From assembly GCA_021787475.1 (NCBI GenBank), contig JAJYLW010000015.1:1-55252 (forward strand): a stretch of 55,252 nt of DNA. Direction: 5' to 3'. Positions within the stretch are counted from its first letter, which is position 1. Every line of letters begins with the position of its first letter. The notes under the pieces are model-generated. The model was given only the letters and a program-made list of their open reading frames with translations, was not told the origin of the DNA and did not search any database. This document shows positions 11,368 to 41,815 of the stretch, piece after piece. This DNA is from Actinomycetes bacterium (GTDB lineage Bacteria > Actinomycetota > Thermoleophilia > BMS3ABIN01). The position numbers were made by a program, and so were the translations under genes.

Positions 11368-11385
11368 GGAAATCTGATTTAGAGC

Positions 11386-13773: not shown

Positions 13774-13857
13774 TTCAGGGCGAGTTAAGAGTTCCGAGTT
13801 ATTTAAGAAAGTTTTTACTGATCATCCTCTTACTCAGGATAATTAGAAAAAATGATA

Positions 13858-13908
13858 CGAGGGGCAAGCCCCGAGTTCATTTCTAGGTAAATTGGAAGAT
13901 CAGCAAGT
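13858..13908. repeat. Dispersed intergenic repeat, about 50 bp
   Basis: The segment from cgaggggcaagccccgag through aaattggaagatcagc matches, with a few changes, the reverse complement of 22619-22672; a diverged partial copy is at 1897-1932. The left part contains the palindrome GGGGCAAGCCCC. It lies in the 183-base gap between ahbD and ahbA, flanked by text-like gagttccgagtt and ggaactcgaaact words. Confidence 0.65.
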
Positions 13909-13956
13909 TTTTTTTAATTTTGAGCTCGGAACTCGAAACTTGGAATCGGGATTTTT

Positions 13957-14418: not shown

Positions 14419-14456
14419 CCGTTGAGCATTGAAACTCTATATGATTGCAATTAGGT

Positions 14457-14939: not shown

Positions 14940-14949
14940 CTCCGCGTTC

Positions 14950-17056: not shown

Positions 17057-17347
17057 CCGCCCTTCCCCCTTACGGGCTTTACCCATGCGGGTATCGCCGC
17101 CCGGAAATCTCCATTTGAATTTCTGAAAGATGTGGCGCATAATAATCACGGTTCTTTTATTCCTCAAGTTGCTGGGAAGAACCGCTGAACAAGTGTTCGC
17201 AGCCGCAGCAGCAGATACCAGCGGCCGGGTGGGGAACATTGTTCACTAGCGTCACGGGTTAATTTATGACAGCACGTTTTTGTGTTTCCTGGAAAAGGCG
17301 GCCACACTTGCTGCCCGAGATTCCTCCAAAGTCATTAGCATGCGGGC

Positions 17348-19706: not shown

Positions 19707-19719
19707 CAAAGAAGAGTCC

Positions 19720-20352: not shown

Positions 20353-21656
20353 ATCACAAGACAGCCCCCGTCGAGCTGCGCGAGAAGGTTTCCCTTGACG
20401 AGGAGAAGTGCGGGGCGCTCTCCCGTCGCCTTCTTGACGGAGACGGCGCCCTTGAAGTTGTTCCCCTCTCGACCTGCAACCGCACCGAGGTTTATGTGGT
20501 GGCCTCGCGGCCGGAGGCGGGCCAGAAGGAGATCCTGGCGGCGCTGACGCAGATCGGCGGCATCCCGGCCGCCGAGCTGGAAGAATGCTCGTATTTTCAC
20601 GAGGGTGACAGGGCGGTGCGGCACCTTTACCGGGTGGCCGGCAGCCTTGACTCAATGGTGGTGGGCGAGGCCCAGATAATGGGGCAGATCAAGGACGCCT
20701 ACCGGCTGGCGCACAAGCAGGAGAGCACCAGCGTGCTCCTCAACCGGCTGTTCAGGCATGCGCTGGAGGTGGGCAAGTGCATCAGAACCGAGACGGCGAT
20801 TGGCGAGAATCCGGTTTCGGTGTCGTCGGTGGCCGTCGAGATGGCCAAAAAGGTGTTTGAGAATCTGGAGGGGAAGGTGGTGCTGCTGCTGGGCGCCGGC
20901 AAGATGAGCGAGCTGACCGCCACCCATCTACTCTCCCAGGGAATCGCCACTATCTTTGTCGGCAACCGCACCCTCAGCCGCGCTGAAGCGCTGGCGGACA
21001 AGTTCAACGGCAGGGCGATCCCCTATGACGACTTGCTTGACTATTTGCCTTTGGCTGATATCGTCATCAGCTCCACCGGCTCTCCCCATTACGTCCTCCG
21101 GAAAGGCGAGGTCGAGCGCGCCCTTCGCCGCCGCCACAACATGCCGATTTTCTTCATTGATATCGCGGTTCCGCGTGACATCGATCCCGGCGTCAACGAT
21201 GTCAACAACGCTTTCCTTTTTGATATCGACGACCTGAACGAGATGGCCCGCGCCAACGCCGTTGCCCGTAAAAAGGAGGCGGAGAAGGCGGAGAGGATCG
21301 TTGGCCAGGAAGTGGAGAATTTTAGCCAATGGCTGGCCGGCCTTGACGCAGTGCCGACGATCACGGCGCTGAGGGAGATGGCGGAGGCGGTCAAGCAGGC
21401 GGAGGTGGCAAAAGCGCTGGCACGCTTTGACGGCGATCTCTCGGAGAAGGACCGGAACCGCATTGAGACGATGGCAGCCGGCATCGTCAACAAGATCCTG
21501 CATGAGCCGACCGTGGAGCTGAAGCGGGTCGCGAACGAGCGCGGCGGCTACCTTTACGTTGAATCGATGCGGCGCCTGTTCAAGCTCAACGGTCACAAAA
21601 AAACGGAAACGGAAGCCGTCCCCGGGCGGCGCCAAGCGGAGAAAGATGAGCACTGA
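20328..21656 (+). CDS. hemA: Glutamyl-tRNA reductase HemA
   Basis: A 442-residue enzyme reducing glutamyl-tRNA to glutamate-1-semialdehyde, the first committed step of tetrapyrrole synthesis. The active-site cysteine is in PLSTCNRTEVY near residue 49, the signature GEAQIMGQIKDAY near 110, and the NADPH loop LLGAGKMSE near 188. A C-terminal dimerisation helix region is present. It overlaps the preceding dehydrogenase gene by 25 bases and hemC by 11, so all are one operon. The next enzymes HemL and HemB are not in the window. Confidence 0.95.
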   Translation: MHLAVLGINHKTAPVELREKVSLDEEKCGALSRRLLDGDGALEVVPLSTCNRTEVYVVASRPEAGQKEILAALTQIGGIPAAELEECSYFHEGDRAVRHLYRVAGSLDSMVVGEAQIMGQIKDAYRLAHKQESTSVLLNRLFRHALEVGKCIRTETAIGENPVSVSSVAVEMAKKVFENLEGKVVLLLGAGKMSELTATHLLSQGIATIFVGNRTLSRAEALADKFNGRAIPYDDLLDYLPLADIVISSTGSPHYVLRKGEVERALRRRHNMPIFFIDIAVPRDIDPGVNDVNNAFLFDIDDLNEMARANAVARKKEAEKAERIVGQEVENFSQWLAGLDAVPTITALREMAEAVKQAEVAKALARFDGDLSEKDRNRIETMAAGIVNKILHEPTVELKRVANERGGYLYVESMRRLFKLNGHKKTETEAVPGRRQAEKDEH

Positions 21657-22611
21657 CCGCGCCCGGGGCGTGGTGATTGGCACCCGCGGCAGTGAGCTGG
21701 CCATGTTTCAGGCGCGCCAGGTGGCCTGGACGCTGCAAAGAAACAGCATCGACCTCTCGGTCAAAATCAGGAAGATAACCACCTCCGGCGACAAGATTCT
21801 CGATTCCCCCCTGGCCCGGATCGGCGACAAGGGCCTCTTTGTCAAGGAGATTGAAACGGCATTACTCGAAGGCGAGATCGACCTGGCCGTCCACAGCGCT
21901 AAGGATCTGCCCACGGTCCTGCCCGACGGCCTGATAGTCGGCGCCTACGGCAGCCGCGAGGATCCCCGCGATGTTTTTGTCGGCAGCGGCCGCAGCCTGC
22001 GGGGGATTCCCGCCGGGGGCAGAGTCGGCACCAGCAGTCTCAGGCGTCGCTCGCAGTTGCTGTCGCTCAGGCCCGATCTGGAGATTGTTGACATAAGGGG
22101 GAATGTTGACACCAGGATCAGGAAGATAGCGGAGCAGGGGCTTAACGGCACCATCCTGGCGGCGGCAGGCGTCAAGAGACTTCAGAAGGAAGACCAGATC
22201 GCCTTTCATTTTTCGTTTGACGAGCTGCTGCCGGCGGTGGGGCAGGGCGTCATCGCCGTTGAGGTGCGCCGGGATGACAACCCAGTCCACCAGCTGATCG
22301 GCGTCCATAATGATGAGGATGCGGCCGCCTGCGTGCGCGCCGAGCGGGCGCTGATGCGGTGGCTGGAAGGGGGCTGCCAGGTGCCGATCGGCGCCCATGC
22401 CCGGACCCAGGGCGGCGCCCTGTTGCTGACGGCCTTCCTTGGCTCCCTGGACGGCGCCAGCGCCGTGCGCGACTCGATCGAGGGACCGGTCAGGGAGGCG
22501 GAGCGGCTGGGCGAGGCGCTGGCGGAGAGAATGCACGGCAGCGGCGGCGCCGAGATTCTGGCGGCTGTACGCGAAGCCCACGATGGCGAGGGTAGCGGCT
22601 ACTGGACGTAA
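21646..22611 (+). CDS. hemC: Porphobilinogen deaminase HemC
   Basis: A 321-residue hydroxymethylbilane synthase. GTRGSELAMFQA at the N-terminus, FVKEIETALLEGEIDLAVHS and the catalytic Asp region, the Arg-rich GTSSLRRRSQL and the cofactor-attachment Cys244 in EGGCQVPIGAH are all intact. The start ATG at 21646 overlaps the end of hemA by 11 bases and is fixed by the conserved VVIGTRGSELA; the longer frame upstream is inside hemA. It is the last gene of the plus-strand tetrapyrrole block. In many genomes hemB and hemL would follow; here the strand switches instead. Confidence 0.95.
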   Translation: MSTDRARGVVIGTRGSELAMFQARQVAWTLQRNSIDLSVKIRKITTSGDKILDSPLARIGDKGLFVKEIETALLEGEIDLAVHSAKDLPTVLPDGLIVGAYGSREDPRDVFVGSGRSLRGIPAGGRVGTSSLRRRSQLLSLRPDLEIVDIRGNVDTRIRKIAEQGLNGTILAAAGVKRLQKEDQIAFHFSFDELLPAVGQGVIAVEVRRDDNPVHQLIGVHNDEDAAACVRAERALMRWLEGGCQVPIGAHARTQGGALLLTAFLGSLDGASAVRDSIEGPVREAERLGEALAERMHGSGGAEILAAVREAHDGEGSGYWT

Positions 22612-27128: not shown

Positions 27129-27157
27129 TTGACATTTATTAAATGTCGTCGTAAAAT
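27129..27157 (+). promoter_or_regulatory. Strong sigma70-type promoter for the cytochrome operon
   Basis: TTGACA at 27129-27134 and TAAAAT at 27152-27157 are separated by exactly 17 bases. The expected start near 27164 would give a 5' leader of about 335 bases before the cytochrome ATG. Confidence 0.7.
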
Positions 27158-27498: not shown

Positions 27499-29058
27499 AT
27501 GCGAGGGATAACCAACAACATGATGAAGGGTAAGTATATGCGAAAGATAGCTCTGGTAACGTTGATTGCGCTTCCGGTTGTTTTATTGCTGGCGTTTGCG
27601 ACCTCCGCATACGCACAGATCGACCCGTTAAGCCAGGTCGCCATCGGCGCGTATTCGACTAATAATCCGAACGGCGGCGTGCCTTCCGGATATTTAGACG
27701 GAAACGGCGACATCGCTCCGCACGGCAATTACAGCCTGGCGAATCCAAGCGCGGCTTATGCGCAGTATGGCAATACAAAGCCGACTGACTTCTGTCTCCA
27801 GTGCCACATGGTGCACGACGCCGAGGGCGACTACGCTCTCATGCGGGAGCAGACCGTGACGCAGACCTGCGCCACCTGCCACAACGTCTTTGGCCACAGC
27901 CCCACGGGGCAGTGGACGCGTCCCCGCCTGGTGAACTGGAACGAGGATCCTAACGAGGTCCAGCCGACTACCGCCATCGTGGGCGCCTACAAGAACGAGA
28001 CGGCAAATAACGGCGCCGGCCCGCAAAGCGAGCACGGCCTCGGAGTCATTCTGGATGGCAACGGCAATGTTGTTAACGGAGCCGAAGGCCGGGCCGGCGC
28101 GGATGACATCGCCGGCGAGTGCGATACCGACGCTTCCCGCGGCGGCACTTCCGACGGCGGCAACCCGACCAACTGCACCAACCTGCTGAAGGTGATCTCG
28201 CCGGCCAGCTACGCTGCCGGACTGACCAACTTCAGCGTTAACGCCGGTGGCCCAATCTACAGTGGCCAGGAGTCGAACCAGTTTGCGGCCACCAACGGCC
28301 TCTACTGCGCTTCCTGCCACTCGGTGCACGGCTCGGTCCAGGCCAACCCGAACACGATGACCTCTTACAAGAGCTGTTACATTGACAGCGAGGGCGTCTA
28401 CCGGGCGGTTGGGGCCGATACCCCGGCGCCGGCAGGCGCGACGCTGACCAACTGTCCGACGTCATCGCTGGGCAGCTTCGGCAAGCAGCTGGTGACTACG
28501 CAGGGGCTGAACAGCAGCACGACCGGCTACCCACATGTGGTGTTCCCGGACCGGCTGCTCTCCGACATGCCGAACCACTCGCTGTATCAGCCGATGAACA
28601 ACGAGGCGACGTCAAGTCATAACGGTGACGTTCAGAGCGCGACTTGGGACGGCACGAACAATACGTTCAAATGGCAGCCGCGTCCGGCGGAGACATACAA
28701 CGAGTTCTGCATGACCTGCCACACGATGAAGAACGACTCGGCGGCGGCAGATGTGGAGAACGCCAACGGCACCAACAGCGCCGATCCGTCTCAGCCGCAC
28801 AACCATCCGCCTCTCTGCACCTCCTGCCACGGAAACCCGGGCAATGGATCGTTCGGCCAACAGGGTAACGGCAATGGTTACGTCAACGACTTCCCGCACA
28901 GCAGTGGCAACGAGAAGTTCCTGACGCAAAACTCGGACAAGCTCTGTCTGGGTTGCCATTCGCCCGCAAACGGTCAGCCTGATGAAGCTGGTCAGTACGG
29001 TAACACCAATTCCTATGGTGGCGCCTACGACAACGGCGCAGGCAACCACCTGCCGTAA
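27499..29058 (+). CDS. Secreted hexaheme c-type cytochrome
   Basis: A 519-residue protein with a signal peptide (KIALVTLIALPVVLLLAFAT, then SAYA-Q cleavage) and six CxxCH heme sites: CLQCH, CATCH, CASCH, CMTCH, CTSCH and CLGCH. CxxCHxxH spacing at CLQCHMVH and CASCHSVH marks the doubled-CxxCH family and suggests bis-His ligation. The same six sites, in the same order and with shared linkers (YSLxRExTVTQ type, IYSGQ, SFGxQL, YNEFC, DFPHxS), recur at the C-terminus of the giant protein at 31633-35754. ATG at 27499 follows aaaggaggtg at slightly long spacing; ATG at 27538 (MRKIALVTL) follows gaaggg and gives a minimal signal peptide. It is the first gene of a set with a lipoprotein, a TPR protein and an NHL protein. 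NHL genes beside nanowire-type cytochromes are known in Geobacter, so a role in extracellular electron transfer is a reasonable inference. Confidence 0.88.
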   Translation: MRGITNNMMKGKYMRKIALVTLIALPVVLLLAFATSAYAQIDPLSQVAIGAYSTNNPNGGVPSGYLDGNGDIAPHGNYSLANPSAAYAQYGNTKPTDFCLQCHMVHDAEGDYALMREQTVTQTCATCHNVFGHSPTGQWTRPRLVNWNEDPNEVQPTTAIVGAYKNETANNGAGPQSEHGLGVILDGNGNVVNGAEGRAGADDIAGECDTDASRGGTSDGGNPTNCTNLLKVISPASYAAGLTNFSVNAGGPIYSGQESNQFAATNGLYCASCHSVHGSVQANPNTMTSYKSCYIDSEGVYRAVGADTPAPAGATLTNCPTSSLGSFGKQLVTTQGLNSSTTGYPHVVFPDRLLSDMPNHSLYQPMNNEATSSHNGDVQSATWDGTNNTFKWQPRPAETYNEFCMTCHTMKNDSAAADVENANGTNSADPSQPHNHPPLCTSCHGNPGNGSFGQQGNGNGYVNDFPHSSGNEKFLTQNSDKLCLGCHSPANGQPDEAGQYGNTNSYGGAYDNGAGNHLP

Positions 29059-29113
29059 GGCGGACATGGTTCACGACAGCCAGTTATAATAAACTGGTCT
29101 GACTGGAACATAT

Positions 29114-29140
29114 GGGGAGGCATCCACCGGATGCCTCCCC
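29114..29140 (+). promoter_or_regulatory. 12-bp perfect hairpin over the lipoprotein start site
   Basis: ggggaggcatcc, loop acc, ggatgcctcccc forms a perfect 12-bp stem. Its left arm is the ribosome binding site (ggggagg) and its right arm contains the ATG at 29131, so folding would hide both. No T run follows, so it is not a usual terminator. It lies 55 bases after the cytochrome stop. It could lower lipoprotein yield relative to the cytochrome or protect the upstream message. Confidence 0.6.
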
Positions 29141-29727
29141 AAACTCGGGAAGCGGTTTTTCCCGATGAAAAAGAAGAGCGATTTTCCACGAAAAAAAAGC
29201 TGACAGCAGTTTTTCTCCTCGGTCTTGCCTCCCTGGTAATTGCCTCGTGCGGCTCCGGCGCCCAGGCAGGCACCACCGGCACCACCCAGAATTTTAGCCA
29301 GCTGCACTCGAAGACTCCCGATCAGCAGAAGCAGATTCTTAATGACGTACATAATGACCTTACTTTAATCATGGGCATTACCAACAATCCGGCCGGCTTC
29401 CCCCAGGCCCTGACAGGGGCGGCGCTGGACAGCCAGAAGAAGCAGTTTGACCAGGATATGGCCCAGGGCCGCTACCGCAAGCGGGATTACCGCAACATGA
29501 CGTTAAAGTTTGAAGGCTACGATGATCCCATTGCCGAGATGTCCCTGGAGTTCGACGACTACGGTTATTACGTCGACGCCAAAACCGGCCATCAGCTGAG
29601 CCAGCCTTCACGCCAGCACCAGAAATTTGATTTGGCCGTAAAAGAGGACGGCGGCCATTGGAAGATTGAGCGCCTGCTGGCTCCCAGCAATTCCCGCACG
29701 CCCACCAGCCTTAACGGGGGCAGTTAA
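29131..29727 (+). CDS. Lipoprotein of the cytochrome cluster, unknown function
   Basis: A 198-residue protein. After a polar start, KKKLTAVFLLGLASLVIASC is a lipoprotein signal with lipobox VIASC, so the mature protein would begin at Cys40 and be lipid-anchored outside the membrane. The mature part is soluble, with charged helices then beta-like segments (TLKFEGYDDPIAEMSLEF, YGYYVDAKTG) and an end GGHWKIERLL reminiscent of NTF2-like folds. ATG at 29131 has a ribosome binding site but both are in a strong hairpin; no other standard start precedes the signal. It lies between the cytochrome and TPR genes and is probably part of their complex or assembly. Confidence 0.65.
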   Translation: MPPQTREAVFPDEKEERFSTKKKLTAVFLLGLASLVIASCGSGAQAGTTGTTQNFSQLHSKTPDQQKQILNDVHNDLTLIMGITNNPAGFPQALTGAALDSQKKQFDQDMAQGRYRKRDYRNMTLKFEGYDDPIAEMSLEFDDYGYYVDAKTGHQLSQPSRQHQKFDLAVKEDGGHWKIERLLAPSNSRTPTSLNGGS

Positions 29728-29756
29728 GGAATGGCGAAGGTTCTGAGGAGCACGGC

Positions 29757-30383
29757 TTGTCAAGGTTAATGAATATTGTTATAGCACTGGTCATCATCGG
29801 CATCCTGGCGGGCGGCGGCTACCTTGGCTACCTCTACATCCACCCCCCCCAGACCAAGAGCTCCATCGATCTGGACCTGGAGAGCTGGCAGGGCCGCGTC
29901 AACCAGGACCCCGGCAACGCCCTTTACCGCGCCAACCTGGGCGTCACCCTGATCCAGAAAGGCCAGTTCAACAAGGCGATCCAGGAGCTAAAAGCCGCCC
30001 TCAATATAGATCCGACCGCCTTTACATACATGGATTCCCTCGGCGACGCCTACCGTCTCGCCGGCCAGCCGGACAATGCCGTTAACGAGTACAAGCAGGC
30101 GCTGGCAAAATATCCACCGGGGAACAAGTATACCGACGCGTACAAGATTGCCGATGTTTTGTTCAATGACAAGCATGACATAAACGGGGCGCTCAATTAC
30201 GTGCAGCAGTCGATTGCCGATAACGGCAACATCTGGAACAGCCTCTACCTTTTCGGCCAGATTCTGGAAAAGCAGGGGAAACTGGCGCAGGCCCGGCAGG
30301 AATATCTGAAAGCGGCGGAATTTAACGGCAGTGACCCGGGCGTGCAGGCGGCCCTGAAGCGTGTGGAAGCGGCTAAAGTCTAA
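29757..30383 (+). CDS. Membrane-anchored TPR-repeat protein
   Basis: A 208-residue protein. Residues 5-28 are one membrane segment (NIVIALVIIGILAGGGYLGY), followed by about four tetratricopeptide repeats; the best are NALYRANLGVTLIQKGQFN and AFTYMDSLGDAYRLAGQPD. Start TTG at 29757 is chosen because gaggag lies seven bases upstream; ATG at 29769 is an alternative. TPR domains bind other proteins, and in this operon it may hold cytochrome subunits during assembly outside the membrane. The NHL gene follows after 21 bases. Confidence 0.8.
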   Translation: MSRLMNIVIALVIIGILAGGGYLGYLYIHPPQTKSSIDLDLESWQGRVNQDPGNALYRANLGVTLIQKGQFNKAIQELKAALNIDPTAFTYMDSLGDAYRLAGQPDNAVNEYKQALAKYPPGNKYTDAYKIADVLFNDKHDINGALNYVQQSIADNGNIWNSLYLFGQILEKQGKLAQARQEYLKAAEFNGSDPGVQAALKRVEAAKV

Positions 30384-30404
30384 TCTGATTTTGGGAGTAG
30401 TGAC

Positions 30405-31457
30405 ATGGAGTTTGTAGAGACCTTAAAAGATCACAAGAAAAAACTGATCGTGATCGCCATCCTGCTGATCATTTTGGTGGTGGTGCTGCTGCTGCTGATG
30501 AGAAAGAAAGCCGAGTCGCAGATCGTCACTTCGGGTTTTACCTTCATTGGGTCTATTAACGGACTTCATTCTCCGCTGGGCGTGGCCACTGACCATTATG
30601 AGAACATCTATGTCAGTGACACCGGCGCGGGCCAGGTTACCGTTTATAACCGCGACGGCGGCAAGAAATTCGATATCAACAATACCACCGACGAGACGGG
30701 CAAGCCGCTCAAATTCAACGGCCCCTATGGCATCGCTGTTGACGACGTCCACAACAAGATTTACGTCTGCGATTACACCTGGCGCGGTGTGCGCGTCCTG
30801 GACAGGGATGGCCATTTCCTCTACAACCTGCCGAAGGATCCCAAAACCGACCTTAAAAACAACCCGAACATAGGTTTCGAGCCTTTCGGCGTTGCCGTGG
30901 CCGGCGACCGGGTCTTCGTCTCTGGACAGGACGGCCTCTTTATCTTTGACTCCGACGGCAATTTTATCGAGCACCTGGGCACGTATGGCACCGGCAAGGG
31001 CCAGTTCCAGTTTGCCGACGCCATTGCCGTCGACCCCAAGACAAAAAACATATTTATGACCGACACCCTTAACCGGCGCATCACCTGCCTGACCATGGAA
31101 GGCAAGCTGCGCTGGATTCTGGGAAGCCCGGACAAGAACGGCCAGGTCACCAGCCCGCTGCAACTGCCGCGCGGCATCGCGGTTGGTCCGGACGGCCTCG
31201 TTTACATTAGCGACACCTTTGCCCAAAAAATCATTGTGCTTGACCAGAATGGAAACCTGAAATCAGAGTTTGGCAACCGGGGGGTCCAGGACGCGGAGAT
31301 CAATTTCCCTGAAGGGATCGCCATTACCTCAACCCGGCGCATGTACATTGACGACCGCGAGAACAACCGCGTGCAGATCTGGCAACTGGCCAATCCGCTG
31401 CCGGCCGCCCCCATTAAGGACGTAACCGACTTTGCCAAGGATTTAAAGAAATACTAA
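30405..31457 (+). CDS. Membrane-anchored NHL-repeat beta-propeller protein
   Basis: A 350-residue protein with an uncleaved membrane anchor at residues 15-33 (LIVIAILLIILVVVLLLLM) and about six NHL-type repeats beyond it, for example SPLGVATDHYENIYVSDTG, GPYGIAVDDVHNKIYVCDY, LPRGIAVGPDGLVYISDTF and FPEGIAITSTRRMYIDD. A six-bladed propeller outside the cell is expected. NHL proteins next to multiheme cytochromes are known in metal-reducing bacteria and may aid export or filament assembly. It ends the first cytochrome operon; hairpins follow. Confidence 0.83.
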   Translation: MEFVETLKDHKKKLIVIAILLIILVVVLLLLMRKKAESQIVTSGFTFIGSINGLHSPLGVATDHYENIYVSDTGAGQVTVYNRDGGKKFDINNTTDETGKPLKFNGPYGIAVDDVHNKIYVCDYTWRGVRVLDRDGHFLYNLPKDPKTDLKNNPNIGFEPFGVAVAGDRVFVSGQDGLFIFDSDGNFIEHLGTYGTGKGQFQFADAIAVDPKTKNIFMTDTLNRRITCLTMEGKLRWILGSPDKNGQVTSPLQLPRGIAVGPDGLVYISDTFAQKIIVLDQNGNLKSEFGNRGVQDAEINFPEGIAITSTRRMYIDDRENNRVQIWQLANPLPAAPIKDVTDFAKDLKKY

Positions 31458-31524
31458 GGAGCCGATTGCGTCAAGCCAACGGGAGGGCGGCTCCGGAGCC
31501 GTCCTCCCGGCGCATCTTGATAAG

Positions 31525-31562
31525 CCCTGCAAATTGCGCTATTGAGCAGGGGATGTTTTTTT
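31525..31562 (+). terminator. Terminator-like hairpins after the NHL gene
   Basis: CCCTGC at 31525-31530 pairs with GCAGGG at 31546-31551, and after four bases a run of seven T follows. Just upstream, 31481-31510 forms a longer GC-rich stem (gggagggcggctc against gagccgtcctccc). Together they probably end the cytochrome operon. Confidence 0.55.
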
Positions 31563-31598
31563 GATTTATTGTGCGATAAATGTTATAATTTTCACAAT
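31561..31598 (+). promoter_or_regulatory. Promoter of the giant beta-helix/Ig/cytochrome gene, with inverted repeat
   Basis: TTGATT at 31561-31566 and TATAAT at 31584-31589 have a 17-base spacer, giving a start near 31596 and a leader of about 37 bases. ATTGTG at 31568-31573 and CACAAT at 31593-31598 form an inverted repeat across the -10 box, a possible repressor site. The T run of the preceding terminator overlaps the -35 box. Confidence 0.65.
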
Positions 31599-31632
31599 AT
31601 TTCCGACGTGGCTGAAACCCGGGGGCTAAGGG

Positions 31633-34600
31633 ATGCTGGTCGTGAGGCACATCCGGAAGGCAGGTTATCTGAAGGTTGCTTTTGCCGGGCTGGCGTTTGC
31701 GCTGGTAATCTCGCTGGGGTTGTTCTTCGCCAATCGGGGCTCGGCCTCCACGACAATAGGCATCAGCAACAATTCCACCGGTGGTGACTGTACCACGGTC
31801 GGCGCCTGGGACGCCGCCACCGGGACCTGCACCCTGACCACCGACCTGACCTTCCAGGGAAATAACGGCTTCCAGATCTCGTCCAGCGGCATCACCCTGG
31901 ATGGAAACGGCCATTCCATCGCCGGCAGCAATCAGGCCGACGGCGTTGTCATCCAGGGCGTCACGGGCGTCACCGTCAAGAACCTGACCGTCCAGAGCTT
32001 TGACACCGGGGTTTACCTGAACGGGGCCAGCAGCGTCACGCTCACCGGCAACACCCTTGCCGGCAATGTTTCCTCCGGCGTCAACATTGTCTCCTCAAAC
32101 AGCAACACCGTCTACCACAACAATTTTATCGACAACGGCGTCCAGGCGCAGGCGAGCGGCTCCGGCAACGTCTTTAACCTGGCGTCGCCCCAGGGCGGCA
32201 ACTACTGGAGCGACTGGACTTCGCCCGACGCCGACGGCGACGGCTTTGTTGACATTCCCTACGCTTTTAGCGGCGGCCAGGATAACCTGCCCTTTACAAC
32301 ACAGAACGGCTGGGTTGACACGACGCCGCCGGTGGTGACAAACATTCAACCGTCCGCCAGCGTCGTCGTCAGCTCGGTCATCGTCAGCGCCAGCTACAAT
32401 GACTCCGGCCTCCACGCCAGCGGCGTCGATCCCACCTCTGTCACCGTTACCCTGGATGGAAACATGCTGCCCAATTGCAGCGCCACCGCCACCGACGTTC
32501 ACTGCCCGGCAAACAACCTCGGCGTCGGCCTGCACACGATCACGGTGACGGTAAGCGACATGGTCGGCAACTCCAGCGGCGCCACCAGCGGCGGCTTCAG
32601 CGTCAACGACATTCAAGCCCCCACCGTTTCCGCCGTTGCGCCGTCCGGGGCAATCACCACCAGCACCGCCACCATCTCCGCCAGTTACGTGGACCCGGCG
32701 CCCGCCAGCGGAATTAGTACATCCTCGGTTAACCTCAGCCTGGACGGTCAGGCGCTCAGCGGTTGCATGGTCACAACAACAAATGTAAGCTGCAATGTCT
32801 ACGGCCTCACAGTCGGGCCGCATGCAATCGGCGGCTCTGTCACCGACAACGCCGGCAACACCAGCTCAATTAACGGCAGCTTTAACGTCGGAGACGCGAC
32901 GCCGCCGGTGATAAGCTCCGTCCAGCCCTCGGGCAGCATCTCCACCAGCTCCGCCGCCATCAGCGTTTATTACAGCGACCCGGCGCCGGCCAGCGGGGTC
33001 AACACATCATCGGTTTCAGTGACGTTGGACGGCAGCCCGGTGAGCGGCTGCACGGTCGCGGCGTCGCACGCCAACTGCCCGGTTTACAATCTTGCCGTCG
33101 GCAGCCACGTCATCGGCGGCTTGGTATCGGATAATGCCGGCAACCAGACGGCCATTAGCGGCGGCTTCAGCGTCGTTGACAACGCCAAGCCGGTGATAAC
33201 CGCCGTGACGCCAACAGGCGATATTTATTCTTCCGCCGCCGGCATCACGGTAAATTATTACGATCCGGCGCCGGCCAGCGGCATCAATACCGCTGCCGTT
33301 GCCGTCAGCGTTGACGGGAAGGCCCTCAGCGGCTGCACCGTCACGGCTCAAAGCGCCAGCTGCAACGTCTCCGGCCTGGCGCTGGGCACGCATGCCATCT
33401 CCGGATCGGTGGCAGACAACGCCAGCAATACGACCACGATCTCAGGCAGCTTCAGCATCGTTGACAATATCAGGCCGGTCGCGACCAGCGTCGCTCCCGC
33501 CGGTCCCAACCATTACGGCACCTCTGCGGCCATCAGTGTGTACTATACGGATCCCGTCGGATCCGGCCCCAGCCCGGCGCCGGCCAGCGGCATCAACGCC
33601 TCATCGGTATCGGTCACCCTTGATGGAACGGCGCTCAGCGGCTGCACCGTCACCGCCACCAGCGCCAACTGCAATGTTTCCAACCTGGTGCAGGGCATGC
33701 ACTTGATCGGCGGACACGTTTCTGACAACGCCGGCAACGCCAGCATCATTTACGGCGCTTTTTTCATCGGCCGCTCCGGCGACACCACGCCGCCGCAGAT
33801 AACAATCGCCAGCATGCCGCCCGCCACGGCGGCGATTGACGTCTACTATTCGGACAGTGAAGCGGGCGGCGCCGGGATTGACACAAACTCGGTTGTGGTT
33901 ACGATCGACGGCGGCATCATCAGCTGCAGCGTTGGCGCCAGCCAGGCAAGCTGTCCGGTGGCACAGCAGTCACTGGGCTTGCATGAAGTTGACGCATACG
34001 CGGCCGACAATGCCGGCAACTGGCAAAAGGCGGCTGGCGCCTTTAACGTCACCGACAATGTGGCGCCGGTGATCAGCAACCTCCAGCCGGCGGGAACAAT
34101 CGGCGGCTCCAGCACGGTCATCTCGGCCGGGTTTAACGACCCGGCGCCCTCCAGCGGCATCGCCGCGGTATCGGTCTACATGGACGGCGCCGCCCTCAGC
34201 GCCTGCAATATTGACAAGAGCGCCGGGACGGTCAGCTGCCCAATTCAGGGGCTTACGCTTGGTTCTTCCCATAATTTCACCGTCAACGTCAGCGACAACG
34301 CCAGCAACGCCAGCACCGCCTCCGGCTCCTTTACCGTCGAGGACCTGACGACGCCGGTGATCACCGGCATCTCCCCGGCAGGGGCGGTTAACCCGGGAAA
34401 CATCGTCGTCAGCGCCGGTTATTACGATCCCAACGATCCGGCTCACATCTCCAGCGGCATTGACGTATCGTCAGTGGCTGTGCAGTTGGACGGCAAGCTG
34501 CTGCTTGGCTGCCATGTGACGACATCCAGCGTCGCCTGTCCCGCATACGATCTGGCGCCGGGCACGTCGCCACATGCAATCGGCGTTACGGTCAAGGACG

Positions 34601-35754
34601 ACGCCGGCAACTCCGCCAGCATGAGCGGCAGCTTCACCGTACAGGACACGCTGCCGCCCGTTATCACCAGCATCAGCCCGTCCGGAACGGTCAGCCAGGC
34701 GTCCATACCTTCTCCCTGGAACGTGGAGATTGCCTATGAGGACGCCGGCTCGGGGGTTAATGCCTCAAGCATGGTGATAAACCTGGACGGCCAGAAGGTG
34801 GCCGGCTGCACTATCAGCGCCAGCGCCGCCAACTGCCCGATCCCGGCCGCCAACGAGGGAATGGGATTGCACTCCATCAGCGGTTACCTGAGCGACAACG
34901 CCGGCAACCAGGCCCAGATCGTCGGCAACTTCATGATCACGCCGGCGCTGAGCACTGTCTCGCCTCACGGCGGCTACAGCTCCACCACAAATGACTGCAA
35001 CCTCTGTCATGAGATGCACGGGGCCGACAGCGATTACAGTCTTGTCCGGGAGTCAACGGTGACCCAGGTTTGCGGCACCTGTCACGGACTCTTCGGCGCC
35101 CCGGTGGGCAACAATACCTGGACGCCGCCGCCGCCGTCATTCAGCAGCAACAGCAGCCTCGGCCAGGCGACCGTCTCCCAGTATGCCGTCTATACCGTTG
35201 ACATGTCGAAGATGACGCCGAGCCAGATGGACGCCGTTCCCGGGCACAGCCTCGGGGTAATGTACGGCGGCACGGTCGTTCGCAACAGCAACAGCATTCC
35301 CGACGGCAGCGGCCAGCTGCAGGTCATCTCTGACAGCAACTCCATTTACAGCGGCCAGCCGGCAACCGATTTTGAGGCGCTCCAGGGGTTGAGCTGCGTC
35401 TCCTGCCATACCCCGCATGGATCAACTGATATAACCCAGAGTTTCGGCAACCAGCTGACCGACAACGGTTTCAAGCCGGTGACGGCGAGCATGATGCTGA
35501 CGAATCGGCCGAATCATATCAATACGCCGGTGAAAAGCTATAACGAGTTCTGTGAAGCTTGCCATAACCTGGTAGGAACCGCCAGCGACAGCAACCCGAT
35601 TCACAAGCACCTGCCTCTGTGCGTCTCCTGCCATGGCGACCCCAGCAACGGTGCTTCCCGGGACTTTCCCCACACCAGCCCCAACGCCGATCTGCTTATC
35701 ACAGATACGGCCAACCTGTGTTCGCAGTGCCACGACCCGGCAACGCTGCTTTAA
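31633..35754 (+). CDS. Giant surface protein: NosD-like beta-helix, nine Ig-like repeats, C-terminal hexaheme cytochrome
   Basis: A 1373-residue exported protein. Residues 14-36 are a signal or anchor segment (FAGLAFALVISLGLFFA). Residues about 37-226 are a NosD-like right-handed beta-helix (GITLDGNGHSIAG, then GGNYWSDWTSPDADGDG). Residues about 227-1105 are nine Ig-like repeats of about 95 residues, most starting PPVI-type and ending SDNAGN...GSFSV; most have two cysteines about a dozen residues apart (SGC...C), suggesting one disulfide per domain. Residues about 1106-1373 carry six heme sites (CNLCH, CGTCH, CVSCH, CEACH, CVSCH, CSQCH), collinear with the separate cytochrome at 27499-29058. 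No LPXTG or C-terminal membrane anchor is seen. The layout reads as a long stalk holding a redox tip away from the cell. ATG at 31633 follows ctaaggg. Confidence 0.85.
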   Translation: MLVVRHIRKAGYLKVAFAGLAFALVISLGLFFANRGSASTTIGISNNSTGGDCTTVGAWDAATGTCTLTTDLTFQGNNGFQISSSGITLDGNGHSIAGSNQADGVVIQGVTGVTVKNLTVQSFDTGVYLNGASSVTLTGNTLAGNVSSGVNIVSSNSNTVYHNNFIDNGVQAQASGSGNVFNLASPQGGNYWSDWTSPDADGDGFVDIPYAFSGGQDNLPFTTQNGWVDTTPPVVTNIQPSASVVVSSVIVSASYNDSGLHASGVDPTSVTVTLDGNMLPNCSATATDVHCPANNLGVGLHTITVTVSDMVGNSSGATSGGFSVNDIQAPTVSAVAPSGAITTSTATISASYVDPAPASGISTSSVNLSLDGQALSGCMVTTTNVSCNVYGLTVGPHAIGGSVTDNAGNTSSINGSFNVGDATPPVISSVQPSGSISTSSAAISVYYSDPAPASGVNTSSVSVTLDGSPVSGCTVAASHANCPVYNLAVGSHVIGGLVSDNAGNQTAISGGFSVVDNAKPVITAVTPTGDIYSSAAGITVNYYDPAPASGINTAAVAVSVDGKALSGCTVTAQSASCNVSGLALGTHAISGSVADNASNTTTISGSFSIVDNIRPVATSVAPAGPNHYGTSAAISVYYTDPVGSGPSPAPASGINASSVSVTLDGTALSGCTVTATSANCNVSNLVQGMHLIGGHVSDNAGNASIIYGAFFIGRSGDTTPPQITIASMPPATAAIDVYYSDSEAGGAGIDTNSVVVTIDGGIISCSVGASQASCPVAQQSLGLHEVDAYAADNAGNWQKAAGAFNVTDNVAPVISNLQPAGTIGGSSTVISAGFNDPAPSSGIAAVSVYMDGAALSACNIDKSAGTVSCPIQGLTLGSSHNFTVNVSDNASNASTASGSFTVEDLTTPVITGISPAGAVNPGNIVVSAGYYDPNDPAHISSGIDVSSVAVQLDGKLLLGCHVTTSSVACPAYDLAPGTSPHAIGVTVKDDAGNSASMSGSFTVQDTLPPVITSISPSGTVSQASIPSPWNVEIAYEDAGSGVNASSMVINLDGQKVAGCTISASAANCPIPAANEGMGLHSISGYLSDNAGNQAQIVGNFMITPALSTVSPHGGYSSTTNDCNLCHEMHGADSDYSLVRESTVTQVCGTCHGLFGAPVGNNTWTPPPPSFSSNSSLGQATVSQYAVYTVDMSKMTPSQMDAVPGHSLGVMYGGTVVRNSNSIPDGSGQLQVISDSNSIYSGQPATDFEALQGLSCVSCHTPHGSTDITQSFGNQLTDNGFKPVTASMMLTNRPNHINTPVKSYNEFCEACHNLVGTASDSNPIHKHLPLCVSCHGDPSNGASRDFPHTSPNADLLITDTANLCSQCHDPATLL

Positions 35755-36212: not shown

Positions 36213-38612
36213 ATGAGAGGTCTAAATACTTGCCTGATCCGTCTGAAAAAAAGCCCTGGCGGGAAAATTTTTTTGGCGATTGGCCTAATCATCGCAGCCA
36301 CACTGGGTTTGCACATCAGCTCCGCGGCGGCCGGCGGCGGAGCCATCAGCTCGAGCACTACTTTTAATATCAGCAATGCTGTCGGCGGCGGGGATTGCAC
36401 TGCCCGCGGCATCGGCACCTGGAACCAAAGCACCCTCACCTGCACGCTGACAAGCGACGTGACCATGACCGCCGCGGTTGACGGCATTCAAATAGACAGC
36501 GACGGCGTCACCCTCGACGGCAACGGCCATACGCTGACGGGAAACGGCTCCGGTGAGTCGGGAGTTTTGGGAGTTTATCTCTCGGGCCGGACGCGGGTAA
36601 CGGTCAGGAATCTGAACGTTACCAATTTTAACATTGGCATCGGCCTTGATTCATCCAGCAGCAACGTCATTTCCGGCAACACCGCCAATTCAAACGGGGC
36701 GGGCATCGACCTGGAAAACACGAGCGATAATAATACAATTTCGGCCAACACCGCTGACTCGAATTATACGGGAATCAACCTTGCCAACTCCTCCAGCAAC
36801 AACTTCGTTTCTGGCAATACGGCCGATTTTAATGTCGGAAGTATTCTTAGCGCCGGAATTCTGGTTTCCTCTTCCAGTAACACCATTTCCGGGAACACCG
36901 CCAATTCGAACGGGATCGTCGGGATCGAACTTTTTAGCTCCACAAGCAACAATAACGTTAACGTTACGGGCAACACCACCAATTCAAATTTCGAAGCCGG
37001 TATCGGGCTTTTCGATTTCAACAATAATGAGATTTTGAACAATTCAACTATGTTGAACGCAATAGGAATTGCTGCCACTGACGCCAGCAGCAATACATTT
37101 TCGGGCAACACGATCAGCGCAGGTAACAATGGTATTGTTCTTGACACAAGCTCAACGGGCTCCAACAACAACATCATCTACCGCAACAACTTCATCGGCA
37201 ACACGACCCAGGCGAGCGTGGAAGCCGGCAGCACCGGCAACGTCTTTAACCTGCCGCTTCCCGCCGGCGGCAACTACTGGAGCAACTGGACTTCTCCCGA
37301 CTCTGACAATGACGGCATCGTGGATAGCCCTTACGTTTTTTCCGGCGGCCAGGACAATCTTCCCTGGACCTCGCAGAACGGCTGGCTTAATGATTATTTC
37401 TGGACCTGGTATGATAACCAGAGCCCCGGGGCCAAAGACTGGGTGCTGCTCTCCAACCCCGCCGGCTCGGGCAGCCTCTCCTTTCGCCTTAAAATAGCAG
37501 GCTCTTCCAAAGCGCTGCCAGACTCGGGCCTGGTCGGCGCCGGGAAAACCCTCTACGCCCAGTACCCGGGACTGATGGGCGGGCCGGTGGACGCAACCAA
37601 GGCGCTTCCCTCTGGCGCGGCCGTAACCTCGCAGCGAACCTTATGGGCGGGAAACTCACTGGAGGAAGTCCTGGGCCAGCGCACAGACAAGCTTTCCAAT
37701 GATTATTTCTGGACCTGGTACGATAACCAGAGCTCCGGCTATACAAACTGGATTTTAATCGCTAATACGGGTATGGACCACAACGGCAATACCCAGGGAG
37801 CAGTCACGGCGACTGTTAAGATCGGCGGTTCGGCGGTCTGGAGCGGCAGCATCCCTCCGGGAGGAAGGGTAACCCCCACCTTTCCCGGCAGGATGGGCGG
37901 CCCGGTTGAGGTGACATCCTCAGGCGGAGACGTGATGGCTTCCCAGAGGGTTCTTTCCAACTACGGCTCAGCCTTTAACGAGGTGCCGGGCGTCCCGGCC
38001 TCCTCACTGGCTGACACCTACCTCTGGACCTGGTACGACAACCAGAGCCCCGGAGCGATAAACTGGGTGCTTGTGGCAAATCCGCCCGGAGCCCCGGCGC
38101 CAATCTATTACAACATCTTTATCGGCAGCACTCTGGTAAAAAGCGGCGGGCCGATCGCCCCCGGCCATGACGTCACCCCTGCCTTCCCCGGCAGGATGGG
38201 AGGACCGGTTAAAGTTGTCACGTTCAACAATCCCGCCCATCCGGGAGTGAGCCCCGCGCCTTCTATCTGCTCCCAGCGCTCGGTCTTCGGGCCTTCGTTT
38301 GAGGAAGTGCCGGGCTCTTCCGTCTCCTCACTTGCCGGAAGCTACAACTGGACTTGGTACGATAACCAAAGCCCCGGTATGAGCAACTGGGTGCTTGTGG
38401 CAAATCCGGGCACAGCTACGGTAAACAATGTCACCGTCAAGATAGCCGGAAAGACGGTTTGGGGGCCGGCCAGCATCGGCTCCGGCGCCATGGTTACGCC
38501 AACCTTTCCAGGCAAGATGGGCGGCCCCGTCCAGGTGAGCGCCGGCGGTAACGTGATTGCCTCCCAACGGGTGCTTTACAACGGCTACTTCAACGAGGTG
38601 CTGGGGGAGTAG
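36213..38612 (+). CDS. Secreted NosD-like beta-helix protein with four WTWYDNQSPG-type repeats
   Basis: A 799-residue protein. Residues 17-42 form a signal segment (KIFLAIGLIIAATLGLHISS). Residues about 50-390 are a NosD-like beta-helix with many SSNNxISGNTANSN-type turns and the ending GGNYWSNWTSPDSDNDGI; this head is clearly related to residues 37-226 of the giant protein at 31633. Residues about 393-799 are four repeats of about 100 residues, each with WTWYDNQS, NWVLVANP, FPGRMGGPV and SQRVL motifs. It contains no CxxCH. Tyr/Trp-rich repeats suggest binding of sugars or surfaces, but that is inference. ATG at 36213 is preceded by ggaaaggaaag. No wall anchor is seen. It is 146 bases past a terminator, so it has its own promoter or depends on readthrough. 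Confidence 0.75.
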   Translation: MRGLNTCLIRLKKSPGGKIFLAIGLIIAATLGLHISSAAAGGGAISSSTTFNISNAVGGGDCTARGIGTWNQSTLTCTLTSDVTMTAAVDGIQIDSDGVTLDGNGHTLTGNGSGESGVLGVYLSGRTRVTVRNLNVTNFNIGIGLDSSSSNVISGNTANSNGAGIDLENTSDNNTISANTADSNYTGINLANSSSNNFVSGNTADFNVGSILSAGILVSSSSNTISGNTANSNGIVGIELFSSTSNNNVNVTGNTTNSNFEAGIGLFDFNNNEILNNSTMLNAIGIAATDASSNTFSGNTISAGNNGIVLDTSSTGSNNNIIYRNNFIGNTTQASVEAGSTGNVFNLPLPAGGNYWSNWTSPDSDNDGIVDSPYVFSGGQDNLPWTSQNGWLNDYFWTWYDNQSPGAKDWVLLSNPAGSGSLSFRLKIAGSSKALPDSGLVGAGKTLYAQYPGLMGGPVDATKALPSGAAVTSQRTLWAGNSLEEVLGQRTDKLSNDYFWTWYDNQSSGYTNWILIANTGMDHNGNTQGAVTATVKIGGSAVWSGSIPPGGRVTPTFPGRMGGPVEVTSSGGDVMASQRVLSNYGSAFNEVPGVPASSLADTYLWTWYDNQSPGAINWVLVANPPGAPAPIYYNIFIGSTLVKSGGPIAPGHDVTPAFPGRMGGPVKVVTFNNPAHPGVSPAPSICSQRSVFGPSFEEVPGSSVSSLAGSYNWTWYDNQSPGMSNWVLVANPGTATVNNVTVKIAGKTVWGPASIGSGAMVTPTFPGKMGGPVQVSAGGNVIASQRVLYNGYFNEVLGE

Positions 38613-38800: not shown

Positions 38801-41104
38801 ATGTTGGCATTGGCTTCTTTTTTTCAACAGCAGCTTGACTTTGTCTTATTCATTTACGGGCTGGCGTTAATCCTGCTGGCGGCCGTCTGCCTGCACATGC
38901 GGACCTCGCCGCGCCGCCTGCCCTGGCTCTGGCTGGGCTTGTTCGGGCTTACCGGCGGCATCCGGCAATGGGCCAGCCTTGTCTCAATTGTCAATGACGG
39001 CGCATCATTCAGGCTGTTACGCCTGGTTTTGCTGGCCGCCTCGTATTTTTTCCTGCTGGAGTTTGGCCGCCGGGGCCTGAAACGAATACTTGGCAAAGGA
39101 CCCGGCCCCTGGATTTATCTGCCGCTCGGGGCGGCGGCTTTTTCGGGGGTCTTCGGCGGAGGACAGTCCGGAGCAGGCGCCACCATAAGTTATACTCTCG
39201 GCATTCCGGGCGGCATTCTGACCGCCCTTGTTTTGCTTTACGCGGCCCGAACGGCGAAGAACGGCGGCAGCCTGGAACGGCTCGCGGCACTGGCTTTGGG
39301 GGCGTACTCGGTTTTTGCCGGGCTGGTTGTGCCCGGCGCTTCCTTTGTCCCGGCCTCAGTGCTAAACGAGGCCAATTTCACTTCCAGATTTGGCGTTCCG
39401 GTTCAATTGCTGCTGGGTTTGCTGACGCTTCTTTTCACTGCATCAATCTGGTCGTACGGCCAGCGCACTCGCCCCCAGCTGGAATACATTGTCAGGCGCA
39501 AGGTCAGCGGCCCGGTGCTGGCAATCATGTTTGTGACCGTGCTTGCCGCAGGATGGATTTCCACGGAGCTCTTTGGCGACAACCATATACAGATGATGAA
39601 GAGCGATCTGACCAATCAGACCGCCGCCATCTCGGCGGCGATTGACGAGCATATCCAGAAAATAATTGAGACCCAGGCAAACCCGACAAATCCGGAATAC
39701 AGGAGCCAGGTGGCCGAGCTTAAGGAGCATCTGGGCGATATCCAGAAGGCGAATCCGCAGATGATCGGCCTGATGATATTCGAAAGCGCTGCGGGGCCGC
39801 GGCTGCTGATGTCCAGCGGGCAGGCTTTCCCTCTGGCTGGCGGGCGAGCACAAGCCGGCGAGGCGGAATCTCAGGGCCCGGCTTCAGCATTCTCTGGCCG
39901 TGAGCCGGTCACAGGTGGCTCCTATCATTCCGGCTCCCGGTCTTATCTGGTCAGTTACACACCCATCAACGATTCTGCCGGCAAGACAATCGCGGTTGTT
40001 GCAGTTGAATTCGACTCTTCACATTTTGACTCCATGATCGCCGTCTACCGGCTGGTGCCCATCAGCATCACGCTGTTTGTCCTTCTGATCATGATCGGCG
40101 CCTACGTGACCAGACAAAATCTGGCCGAGAGGGCGGAGATACTGGAGAACGCCAAGAAAAGGTTCTCCGATCTGACCCACAAGGCGATCATGGAGCGCCG
40201 CTGGGAGGTCGGCTTTGAGGACGATTTTGTGCCCACCTGCTGGGAAGTTAAAAAGTGCGACAAGACCAATTGCCCCGTCTATGGGAAAGAACACGCGCGC
40301 TGCTGGCTGATCGCCGGCACCTACTGCCGCGGCCAGGTACAGGGTCAGTTTGCCCAGAAACTTGGCGACTGTTCACAATGCGATATCTACAGGGAGGCAA
40401 TGACGCATGGGCCTGTGAGCGAGATTGGCGAGAACTTCAACAGTCTGATGTGGTCGCTTCGGGAAAAGGAGGACCTGCTCAAAGTCACCAACGATGAGCT
40501 GGAAAAACATAACCGGGAGTTGAAGGAGCTACACCGCCTTGCCGAAGAGCGAGCCGATACCGATGGACTGACCGGCCTCAAGAACCACAGTTATTTCCAG
40601 CAGCGCCTGATGGAGGAGACCGACCGGGCCCAGCGCTACGGCCGCCCCCTGTCACTTATCATGCTGGACCTCGACAAATTTAAAGAGGTGAACGATTGCT
40701 TTGGTCACCAGAAAGGAGACCATCTTCTCCAACTGGTTGGCAAGATCCTGTCGGGCGAGGTGCGCGACGTTGACCTGGCCGCCAGATATGGCGGGGAAGA
40801 ATTCATGATCATCATGCCGGAGATCAAAGGCGAGGAAGCTGTCAAAGCTGCCGAACGCCTGCGCGGCAAAGTGGAGCATCTTTACCGGGAAGTGGACCTG
40901 CCGGAGCACCAGACCGCGGCCAGCTTTGGCGTCGCCGATTTCCCCGCCTGCGCCCGGGACAGCAGCAGCCTGATCGCCGCCGCCGACGGCGCACTGCTCT
41001 TTGCCAAACGCTCGGGCCGCAACCGGGTTGTCTATCTAGATGAAGAGTTGAAGAAGGCGATCAACTGGGATGAGGACAAGAAGCCTGGCAGTTACGCGGC
41101 TTGA
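38801..41104 (+). CDS. Membrane diguanylate cyclase with Cache-like sensor and Cys-rich two-CW domain
   Basis: A 767-residue signalling protein. Residues 1-225 hold about seven membrane segments. Another segment near 237-255, an extracytoplasmic Cache-like region near 256-405 and a segment near 412-432 follow. Residues about 470-530 are Cys-rich (CWEVKKCDKTNCPVYGKE, then CWLIAGTYC and CSQC), like the two-CW motif of many anaerobe sensors, which may hold a metal, cluster or heme. After a coiled coil, the GGDEF domain (about 590-755) has an intact GGEEF active site and the RDVD I-site five residues before it, so it should make c-di-GMP with product inhibition. It stands next to the surface-protein genes, and c-di-GMP often controls surface attachment. 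ATG at 38801 follows ggtgag. Confidence 0.82.
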   Translation: MLALASFFQQQLDFVLFIYGLALILLAAVCLHMRTSPRRLPWLWLGLFGLTGGIRQWASLVSIVNDGASFRLLRLVLLAASYFFLLEFGRRGLKRILGKGPGPWIYLPLGAAAFSGVFGGGQSGAGATISYTLGIPGGILTALVLLYAARTAKNGGSLERLAALALGAYSVFAGLVVPGASFVPASVLNEANFTSRFGVPVQLLLGLLTLLFTASIWSYGQRTRPQLEYIVRRKVSGPVLAIMFVTVLAAGWISTELFGDNHIQMMKSDLTNQTAAISAAIDEHIQKIIETQANPTNPEYRSQVAELKEHLGDIQKANPQMIGLMIFESAAGPRLLMSSGQAFPLAGGRAQAGEAESQGPASAFSGREPVTGGSYHSGSRSYLVSYTPINDSAGKTIAVVAVEFDSSHFDSMIAVYRLVPISITLFVLLIMIGAYVTRQNLAERAEILENAKKRFSDLTHKAIMERRWEVGFEDDFVPTCWEVKKCDKTNCPVYGKEHARCWLIAGTYCRGQVQGQFAQKLGDCSQCDIYREAMTHGPVSEIGENFNSLMWSLREKEDLLKVTNDELEKHNRELKELHRLAEERADTDGLTGLKNHSYFQQRLMEETDRAQRYGRPLSLIMLDLDKFKEVNDCFGHQKGDHLLQLVGKILSGEVRDVDLAARYGGEEFMIIMPEIKGEEAVKAAERLRGKVEHLYREVDLPEHQTAASFGVADFPACARDSSSLIAAADGALLFAKRSGRNRVVYLDEELKKAINWDEDKKPGSYAA

Positions 41105-41632: not shown

Positions 41633-41728
41633 TGGCGGGAAGGCGTAGGAATCGAACCTACCAATGACGGGGTTACCGCCACCTACCGGTTTTGAAGACC
41701 GGCTGGGCCACCAGACCCCTGCCCTCCC
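41633..41728 (-). tRNA. selC: tRNA-Sec (anticodon UCA)
   Basis: A 96-base tRNA gene with encoded CCA. The acceptor stem GGGAGGGC pairs with GCCTTCCC over 8 bp, and the T stem GTAGG/CCTAC has 5 bp, giving the 13-bp acceptor-T arm of bacterial tRNA-Sec. The anticodon stem CCGGT/ACCGG holds the loop CTTCAAA with anticodon TCA at 41693-41695. A long variable arm follows. It lies 87 bases after the selB stop on the same strand, completing a selA-selB-selC set. Confidence 0.95.
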
Positions 41729-41815
41729 GTAAGGATTATGGCCACTCGCATTCTATCCTAACCGCAGCCCGGGCGAATATTGATCGTGCCGTATAGATGC
41801 TTCTGTATAAGTTCT

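Follow-up and report, generated by a model that had tools for sequence, protein, structure and literature searches.

Free and stalk-borne copies of one hexahaem module in an actinobacterial gene cassette: a possible extracellular electron carrier and its docking unit

Contig JAJYLW010000015.1 of the Actinomycetes bacterium assembly GCA_021787475.1 (Actinomycetota; Thermoleophilia; BMS3ABIN01) carries two neighbouring genes for cytochromes with six haem-binding CxxCH sites each. One encodes a secreted standalone protein, here called FREE, and the other a protein in which the haem domain is borne on a long stalk, here called FUS. The window, which means the whole stretch of 55,252 nucleotides that was analysed, is a single contig (C35) of a 1.84 Mb genome with 98.7% completeness. 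FREE and FUS enclose genes for a lipoprotein, a TPR protein and an NHL beta-propeller, and all five cassette genes have the same direction. Their features are as follows (aa, amino acids; Ig, immunoglobulin):

27499..29058, + strand: FREE, secreted standalone hexahaem cytochrome, 519 aa (about 480 mature)
29131..29727, + strand: lipoprotein; lipobox by reading, C-terminal part models as an NTF2-like fold
29757..30383, + strand: TPR protein; Pfam TPR_2 2e-16, N-terminal membrane anchor by reading
30405..31457, + strand: NHL beta-propeller; Pfam NHL 3.8e-16, N-terminal membrane anchor by reading
31633..35754, + strand: FUS, stalk-borne hexahaem cytochrome, 1373 aa
31747..32313, + strand: NosD-type beta-helix head of FUS, residues about 39-227; Pfam NosD 1.3e-12 at 39-195
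32323..34935, + strand: FUS stalk of nine Ig-like (Big_13-type) repeats, residues about 231-1101
34930..35754, + strand: C-terminal hexahaem domain of FUS, last 274 residues; collinear paralogue of FREE

The head of FUS was extended from residue 195 to 227 through similarity to the product of gene 36213-38612. The stalk repeats are 92-105 aa each, with a mean pairwise identity of 44% and exactly two cysteines per repeat. A preliminary description of this DNA had located the fused cytochrome in the last 270 residues of FUS, and its coordinates are correct, with the haem domain at 34930-35751. It had also spoken of a free and a stalk-borne copy of the same redox module, which agrees with our result, the stalk being a NosD head plus nine Ig-like repeats.

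The six CxxCH sites of FREE and the six at the 3' end of FUS make up 12 of the 15 matches to this motif in the whole window, a count not reached in any shuffle. BLASTP of FREE against the haem region of FUS gave two collinear segments (E 4e-16 and 2e-15). In the global alignment of the two haem domains, 18 of 18 C/C/H haem letters were in register, and outside these letters 104 of 244 aligned residues were identical. The alignment score was 374, and 1000 shuffles of the fused domain with its CxxCH letters kept in place gave a mean of 83 (standard deviation 14.5) and a maximum of 132.5, so chance similarity of CxxCH-rich proteins was rejected. The strings DYxLxRExTVTQ, IYSGQ, SFGxQL, YNEFC and DFPHxS, which had been quoted as linkers shared by both proteins, were all found in the same order in FREE and the FUS haem domain. 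Paired_CXXCH_1 (PF09699) matched with 59.5 and 56.6 bits, above the curated cut-off of 20.6. By the alignment, the two cytochromes are collinear paralogues, as was proposed, and their similarity extends well beyond the CxxCH motifs.

FREE is an enlarged relative of the hexahaem of about 285 aa that is found in its family, with four extra cysteines in inserts. It has about 80 residues per haem in the mature form, the FUS domain has about 44, and the wire protein OmcS has about 68 (407 residues, six haems). The between-species ratio of non-synonymous to synonymous substitution rates (dN/dS) was 0.08 for the FUS haem domain, 0.22-0.30 for FREE, 0.18-0.19 for the stalk and 0.06-0.07 for the NHL protein. 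From these features we infer that FREE became a bulkier and more freely evolving carrier and that FUS kept the compact, strongly constrained module.

Across six families, all 24 sequences compared share exactly twelve invariant histidines, of which six belong to CxxCH sites and the six others stand at FUS-domain positions 30, 106, 163, 196, 227 and 248. When further families were added, ten of the twelve columns held in 44 of 44 sequences (the 24, plus 12 standalone and 7 stalked sequences of other families and that of G012). A 15-row alignment of families f26 and f75 again gave twelve invariant histidines. Alignment A2 was built without G012, a near-duplicate of G009, and without the incomplete hexahaem sequences from G371 and G459. 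Widened searches within the classes that include G379 and G235 yielded no additional full-length rows. Twelve invariant histidines fit a cytochrome in which all six haems have two histidine ligands (bis-His), as in OmcS.

The family profile had its best match in the Protein Data Bank (PDB) with 7tfs (E 1.9e-7 over about 90 positions), followed by 9yuq (1.5e-5), and a PDB sequence search with FREE gave 0 matches at E 1. Entry 7tfs carries the database label 'Cytochrome c', and we take it to be the OmcE filament; it is the closest structure by profile, but OmcE is a tetrahaem protein and the alignment is partial. OmcS (PDB 6ef8, 6nef) has in common with our proteins six CxxCH per chain, a CxxCHxxH at haem 1, enough histidines for bis-His ligation and a similar local sequence around haems 1-2. 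It differs in that no full-length match exists and in that the window has a second copy fused to a stalk. The CxxCHxxH histidine at domain position 30 is invariant in 44 of 44 sequences, and presumably matches the inter-subunit ligand of OmcS. One of the twelve ligands of OmcS is supplied by the neighbouring subunit (PMC6584659). The hexahaem seems to resemble OmcS-type wire proteins and is not to be filed as a member of them.

The cytochrome c maturation genes of the window lie about 8-10 kb from the cassette, and in relatives the cassette is directly upstream of them:

17348-18655, + strand: ResB, cytochrome c maturation
18648-19706, + strand: CcsA-type, cytochrome c maturation

The ancestral state was searched for in 119 related genomes. 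Of the 19 genomes in the window's family, 16 carry a hexahaem gene (G000-G004, G007-G016 and G018), counting that of G002 though it is only a fragment at a contig end. Most of them have one standalone hexahaem of about 275-390 aa, with 42-50% identity to the FUS domain and typically about 30% to FREE, so the FUS domain is nearer to the family standard than the enlarged and diverged FREE. The genes typically run hexahaem, lipoprotein, pentahaem, TPR, NHL, and are followed by ResB, CcsA and genes of haem synthesis. In 14 of the 16 genomes the hexahaem was accompanied by the lipoprotein, TPR and NHL genes, the loci of G002 and G014 being broken at contig ends, and the pentahaem gene was found in 10 of the 19. 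Scanning the contigs with FREE as query gave one locus, L061, which agrees with contig C96 of G003 in length and in the position of the match.

Within the genus, FREE and FUS occur together only in G000, G001 and G003, with the order kept in all three. In these genomes the pentahaem is absent, FUS comes after NHL, and the cassette lies away from ResB or on a contig without ResB. Genome G004 of the same genus retains the ancestral position and the pentahaem and has no FUS, so FUS was apparently gained recently, inside the genus.

Some family members carried related proteins in other settings. The gene directly upstream of the standalone hexahaem in G007 encodes a propeller protein that has a single Ig domain like those of the FUS stalk (41% over 111 aa); this neighbourhood (L065 6058-8305) possibly represents a stage before fusion. 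A C-terminal domain of about 100 aa is common to the hexahaem of L110 (residues 207-301), a NosD protein of G016 (L076 15916-17379) and the LVIVD-propeller/Ig protein of G007 (L065 6058-7971), with 33-39% identity, and may be a surface-sorting or attachment domain of the family. A second standalone hexahaem elsewhere in the genome was seen in G010 (L068 8262-9098) and G014 (L073 6200-7036).

When the family profile was run against 396 genomes of the phylum, 37 gave a match; the sequence comparison covered these except families f14, f25, f38, f48 and f66 and genome G437 (f56). In family f26, which belongs to another class of Actinomycetota, the order is TPR, NHL, a free hexahaem of about 304 aa, TPR and a stalked protein that ends in the same hexahaem, over its C-terminal 260 residues. 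Parts of all 11 genomes of f26 were examined, with further stretches for G205 and G163. The pairing is complete on one contig in G174 (L123). In G137, G445, G273, G225, G195 and G151 the stalk gene begins at the same position and is truncated by the end of the contig, and the haem end lies on another contig; we infer that both parts belong to a single gene, and the draft sequence of G195 also has broken reading frames. In this way the free and stalked pair is found in 7 of the 11 genomes, and G205, G163, G244 and G303 have the free form only. The free and stalked pair that had been described for the window is therefore a real arrangement, kept in order in three genomes of its genus and recurring in a distant class.

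All 12 stalked haem domains of f26 formed one clade (100/100) inside f26, and the window-type fused domains formed a separate clade (100/100) inside their own family. In an earlier 44-row tree, FUS_f1 and the fused rows of f26 were also separate clades (100/99 each), and constraining the ten stalked rows of that tree to one clade lowered the log-likelihood by 143 (approximately unbiased (AU) test, p-AU 6.6e-45). The stalks of FUS and f26 are unrelated (best BLASTP E 9.0), and a Pfam scan of three f26 stalked proteins detected neither NosD nor any other stalk domain. On the AU test and the unrelated stalks, descent of the stalked proteins of both classes from one ancient fusion was therefore rejected. 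A single old fusion followed by repeated replacement of the haem domain is a possibility, and long branches and the alignment of insert-rich proteins are caveats on the tree result. Two independent fusions are the simpler reading, and from the separate clades and the rejected single origin the fusion of stalk and hexahaem appears to have arisen at least twice.

The long proteins of loci L125, L128, L133 and L139, with seven haems or broken runs and scattered matches, were left uncounted as stalked hexahaems. A second stalked hexahaem copy of the same fused clade exists in the f26 genomes G174, G273, G137, G445 and G195 (L153, L154, L155, L156 and L157), with stalks of up to about 1565 aa. After the stalked gene of G174 there are two 12-haem proteins on the opposite strand (L123 14096-16299), of which one matches NapC/NirT; they are possibly the quinol side. 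In families f70 and f52 (L099 11053-14829, L100 10064-13510) the hexahaem adjoins, by reading, a ferredoxin-like protein and a large protein with a Tat-like start, possibly a molybdopterin oxidoreductase.

Omp85 was not found in the window genome at E 0.01, with 7 of 14 control genomes positive in the same search, and a sortase is present. The cell is most likely monoderm, judging from these genes, and a porin-cytochrome conduit through the outer membrane of a diderm cell was rejected, as there is no Omp85 in the genome. An Ig-like domain is about 4 nm long, and at this length the nine-Ig stalk of FUS would reach about 35 nm. This falls within the 20-80 nm given for peptidoglycan (PMC7911101).

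The preliminary description saw an assembly line in the lipoprotein, TPR and NHL genes. They are indeed kept between the cytochromes, and the idea has partial support: in relatives the TPR and NHL genes stay beside ResB/CcsA, which suggests that their products may help maturation or export. Binding of apocytochromes is a property of some TPR proteins, NrfG/CcmH among them. In Foldseek the model of the lipoprotein (pLDDT 82) matched the Tim44 C-terminal domain (3qk9, E 3.9e-6) and ARC6/PARC6 intermembrane (IMS) domains (5d9r, E 1.3e-4, and weaker), and Pfam ARC6-like_IMS gave weak matches in 9 of 15 family members. By its model, the C-terminal part of the lipoprotein is predicted to be NTF2-like, close to Tim44/ARC6. 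Paired_CXXCH_1 further revealed three multihaem genes in the window genome, L111 and L115 with seven CxxCH each and L110 with six. L111 and L115 have NrfH-like starts and could take electrons from quinol.

Our reading, held tentatively and a little short of an even chance, is that the locus is an extracellular hexahaem cassette of a single-membrane actinobacterium, with FREE as carrier, possibly as wire, and FUS as its stalked end or docking unit. Its sequence-based parts are the paralogy, the domain order, the conserved lipoprotein, TPR and NHL genes, the absence of Omp85 and, by tree, the second origin. An ancestral secreted hexahaem cytochrome would have been duplicated; one duplicate, FREE, would have grown larger and stayed free, and the other would have kept its compact haem domain and been fused to a NosD head and nine-Ig stalk to give FUS. 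System II (ResB/CcsA), aided by the membrane-anchored TPR and NHL proteins, would load haem on both. FUS would then span or leave the wall on its stalk and present one hexahaem unit, on which FREE would dock via the same interface as in the FREE-FREE contact. Electrons would be carried outward by FREE, as a chain or as exchangeable carriers, with FUS as the fixed end piece. With the Ig stalk joined to the N-terminus, on the side of haem 1, the end with haems 5/6 would face outward for FREE.

A bolder form of this picture, which we hold to be possible and on balance doubtful, is that FUS-type proteins are dedicated nanowire end pieces. Each would be a stalk-mounted wire subunit that nucleates or anchors a hexahaem wire in bacteria that lack an outer membrane, and would have evolved independently at least twice, when unrelated stalks were joined to the N-terminal end of the subunit. 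The picture of a free and a docked form in the preliminary description is plausible, and it gains weight from convergent evolution.

Several results weigh against this reading of carrier and dock. In the trees FREE and FUS are each a fully supported clade and are never joined as sisters, so no special co-evolution of the two is visible. For the same reason FUS as a simple copy of neighbouring FREE was rejected; the collinear paralogy proposed earlier stands, with the correction that the stalked domain is no copy of FREE and is nearer to the standalone form of the family. The pentahaem was lost where FUS appeared, yet it is also absent in G011, which has no FUS, and a strict swap of one for the other was rejected on this ground. 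By reading, FUS ends in the haem domain and lacks a C-terminal anchor, and the hydrophobic stretch at its N-terminus may be a signal that is cleaved off. As to the likeness with wires, OmcS (6ef8) was not among the PDB profile matches at E 0.1. The alignment to OmcS by hhalign scored 62 and covered haems 1-2 only (maximum of 60 shuffles, 36.8), and the pentahaem family scored higher, at 75, which suggests that the OmcS match may be a generic signal of doubled CxxCH. Distal histidines fell on OmcS histidines in 4 of 6 cases, a level reached by 9 of 100 shuffles, and AlphaFold2, given the fused haem domain and 20 rows from the family, produced a model with a pLDDT of 38, which was unusable.

If there is no wire, FREE would be a soluble extracellular shuttle and FUS a wall-spanning or wall-exposed terminal reductase, with exchange by collision. 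This account is compatible with all data of the analysis, and OmhA and OcwA of monoderm bacteria are cell-surface cytochromes (PMC7829351; PMC7096707). It leaves unexplained, however, that the same module is repeated in FUS in two independent lineages, and we regard it as unlikely, if still a serious contender. A less probable account, to which we give little credence, makes FUS a distal-tip adhesin whose NosD head binds mineral, glycan or a partner cell and whose haem domain joins this head to the chain end or the cell. The head itself speaks for it, as do the same head type in the neighbouring gene 36213-38612, the propeller-Ig protein next to a hexahaem in a family member, and the similar binding proposed for the pectin-lyase domain of a cytochrome type of anaerobic methanotrophic archaea (ANME; PMC9012536); but with no NosD in the three scanned f26 stalked proteins, the head is not the common factor. 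That the two are incidental paralogues, FUS having replaced the lost pentahaem as partner of other cytochromes with no direct dealings with FREE, would suit their separate clades and the lack of pentahaem in G000, G001 and G003 against its presence in 10 of 19 family genomes, but is very improbable given the conserved adjacency and the independent second pairing.

For the beta-helix head before the haems, the nearest published architecture by analogy would be multihaem cytochrome type C (MHC-C) of ANME, in which an N-terminal pectin-lyase-type beta-helix precedes the multihaem part and no C-terminal transmembrane segment follows; large ANME cytochromes have 20 to 80 haem sites (PMC9012536). 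FUS likewise has, by reading, a NosD head, a multihaem part and no C-terminal transmembrane segment, but it differs in its six haems, the nine-Ig stalk and the free copy of the module beside it. CwcA of Thermincola (Tfer_0075 / TherJR_1122) is a hexahaem with an OmcS homology model, and a polymer of it was proposed to pass through the peptidoglycan of the monoderm wall (PMC7911101). By description it is similar as a hexahaem of a single-membrane bacterium; Thermincola is, however, not an actinobacterium, and the excerpt mentions no stalked partner. OcwA and OmhA, also compared by description, are cell-surface multihaem cytochromes of single-membrane iron reducers, and OcwA differs by its nine haems. 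A decahaem of the MtrC/OmcA type was rejected, with Pfam Mtrc-MtrF_II-IV_dom at 26.9 and 19.3 bits, under the cut-off of 30, and six haems. No description of a free and stalk-borne pair was found in the excerpts of open-licence PMC literature. How cytochrome wires start and attach to cells is described as unclear; for OmcS this concerns the capping and anchoring of the wire ends, where a membrane anchor might hold the last monomer (PMC7096707). A wire-like module that is repeatedly put on a stalk, with a free version of it encoded nearby, offers a concrete candidate for this kind of attachment piece. It also broadens the argument that single-membrane Actinomycetota use multihaem cytochromes for extracellular electron transfer.

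Around the cassette, promoter-like sites occur upstream of FREE (27129-27157) and FUS (31561-31589), as consensus matches only. Gene 36213-38612, downstream of FUS, encodes a second NosD-type protein whose head is common with FUS (60% over 103 aa) and which ends in repeats around 'WTWYDNQSPG...NWVLVANP'. It has no counterpart between FUS and the following GGDEF gene in G001 and G003. The GGDEF protein, with a two-CW cysteine domain (38801-41104), comes after FUS in the window, G001 and G003, and an Rfam scan of the window gave no cyclic di-GMP riboswitch near its gene, tRNA-Sec being the sole match. This tRNA-Sec and SelB (41637-43756) form a selenocysteine machinery. At 9763-22611, Pfam identified uroporphyrinogen/siroheme genes, two radical SAM proteins and two NirDL-like siroheme decarboxylases beside ResB/CcsA, which we take to be a haem supply by the siroheme route adjoining the cytochromes.

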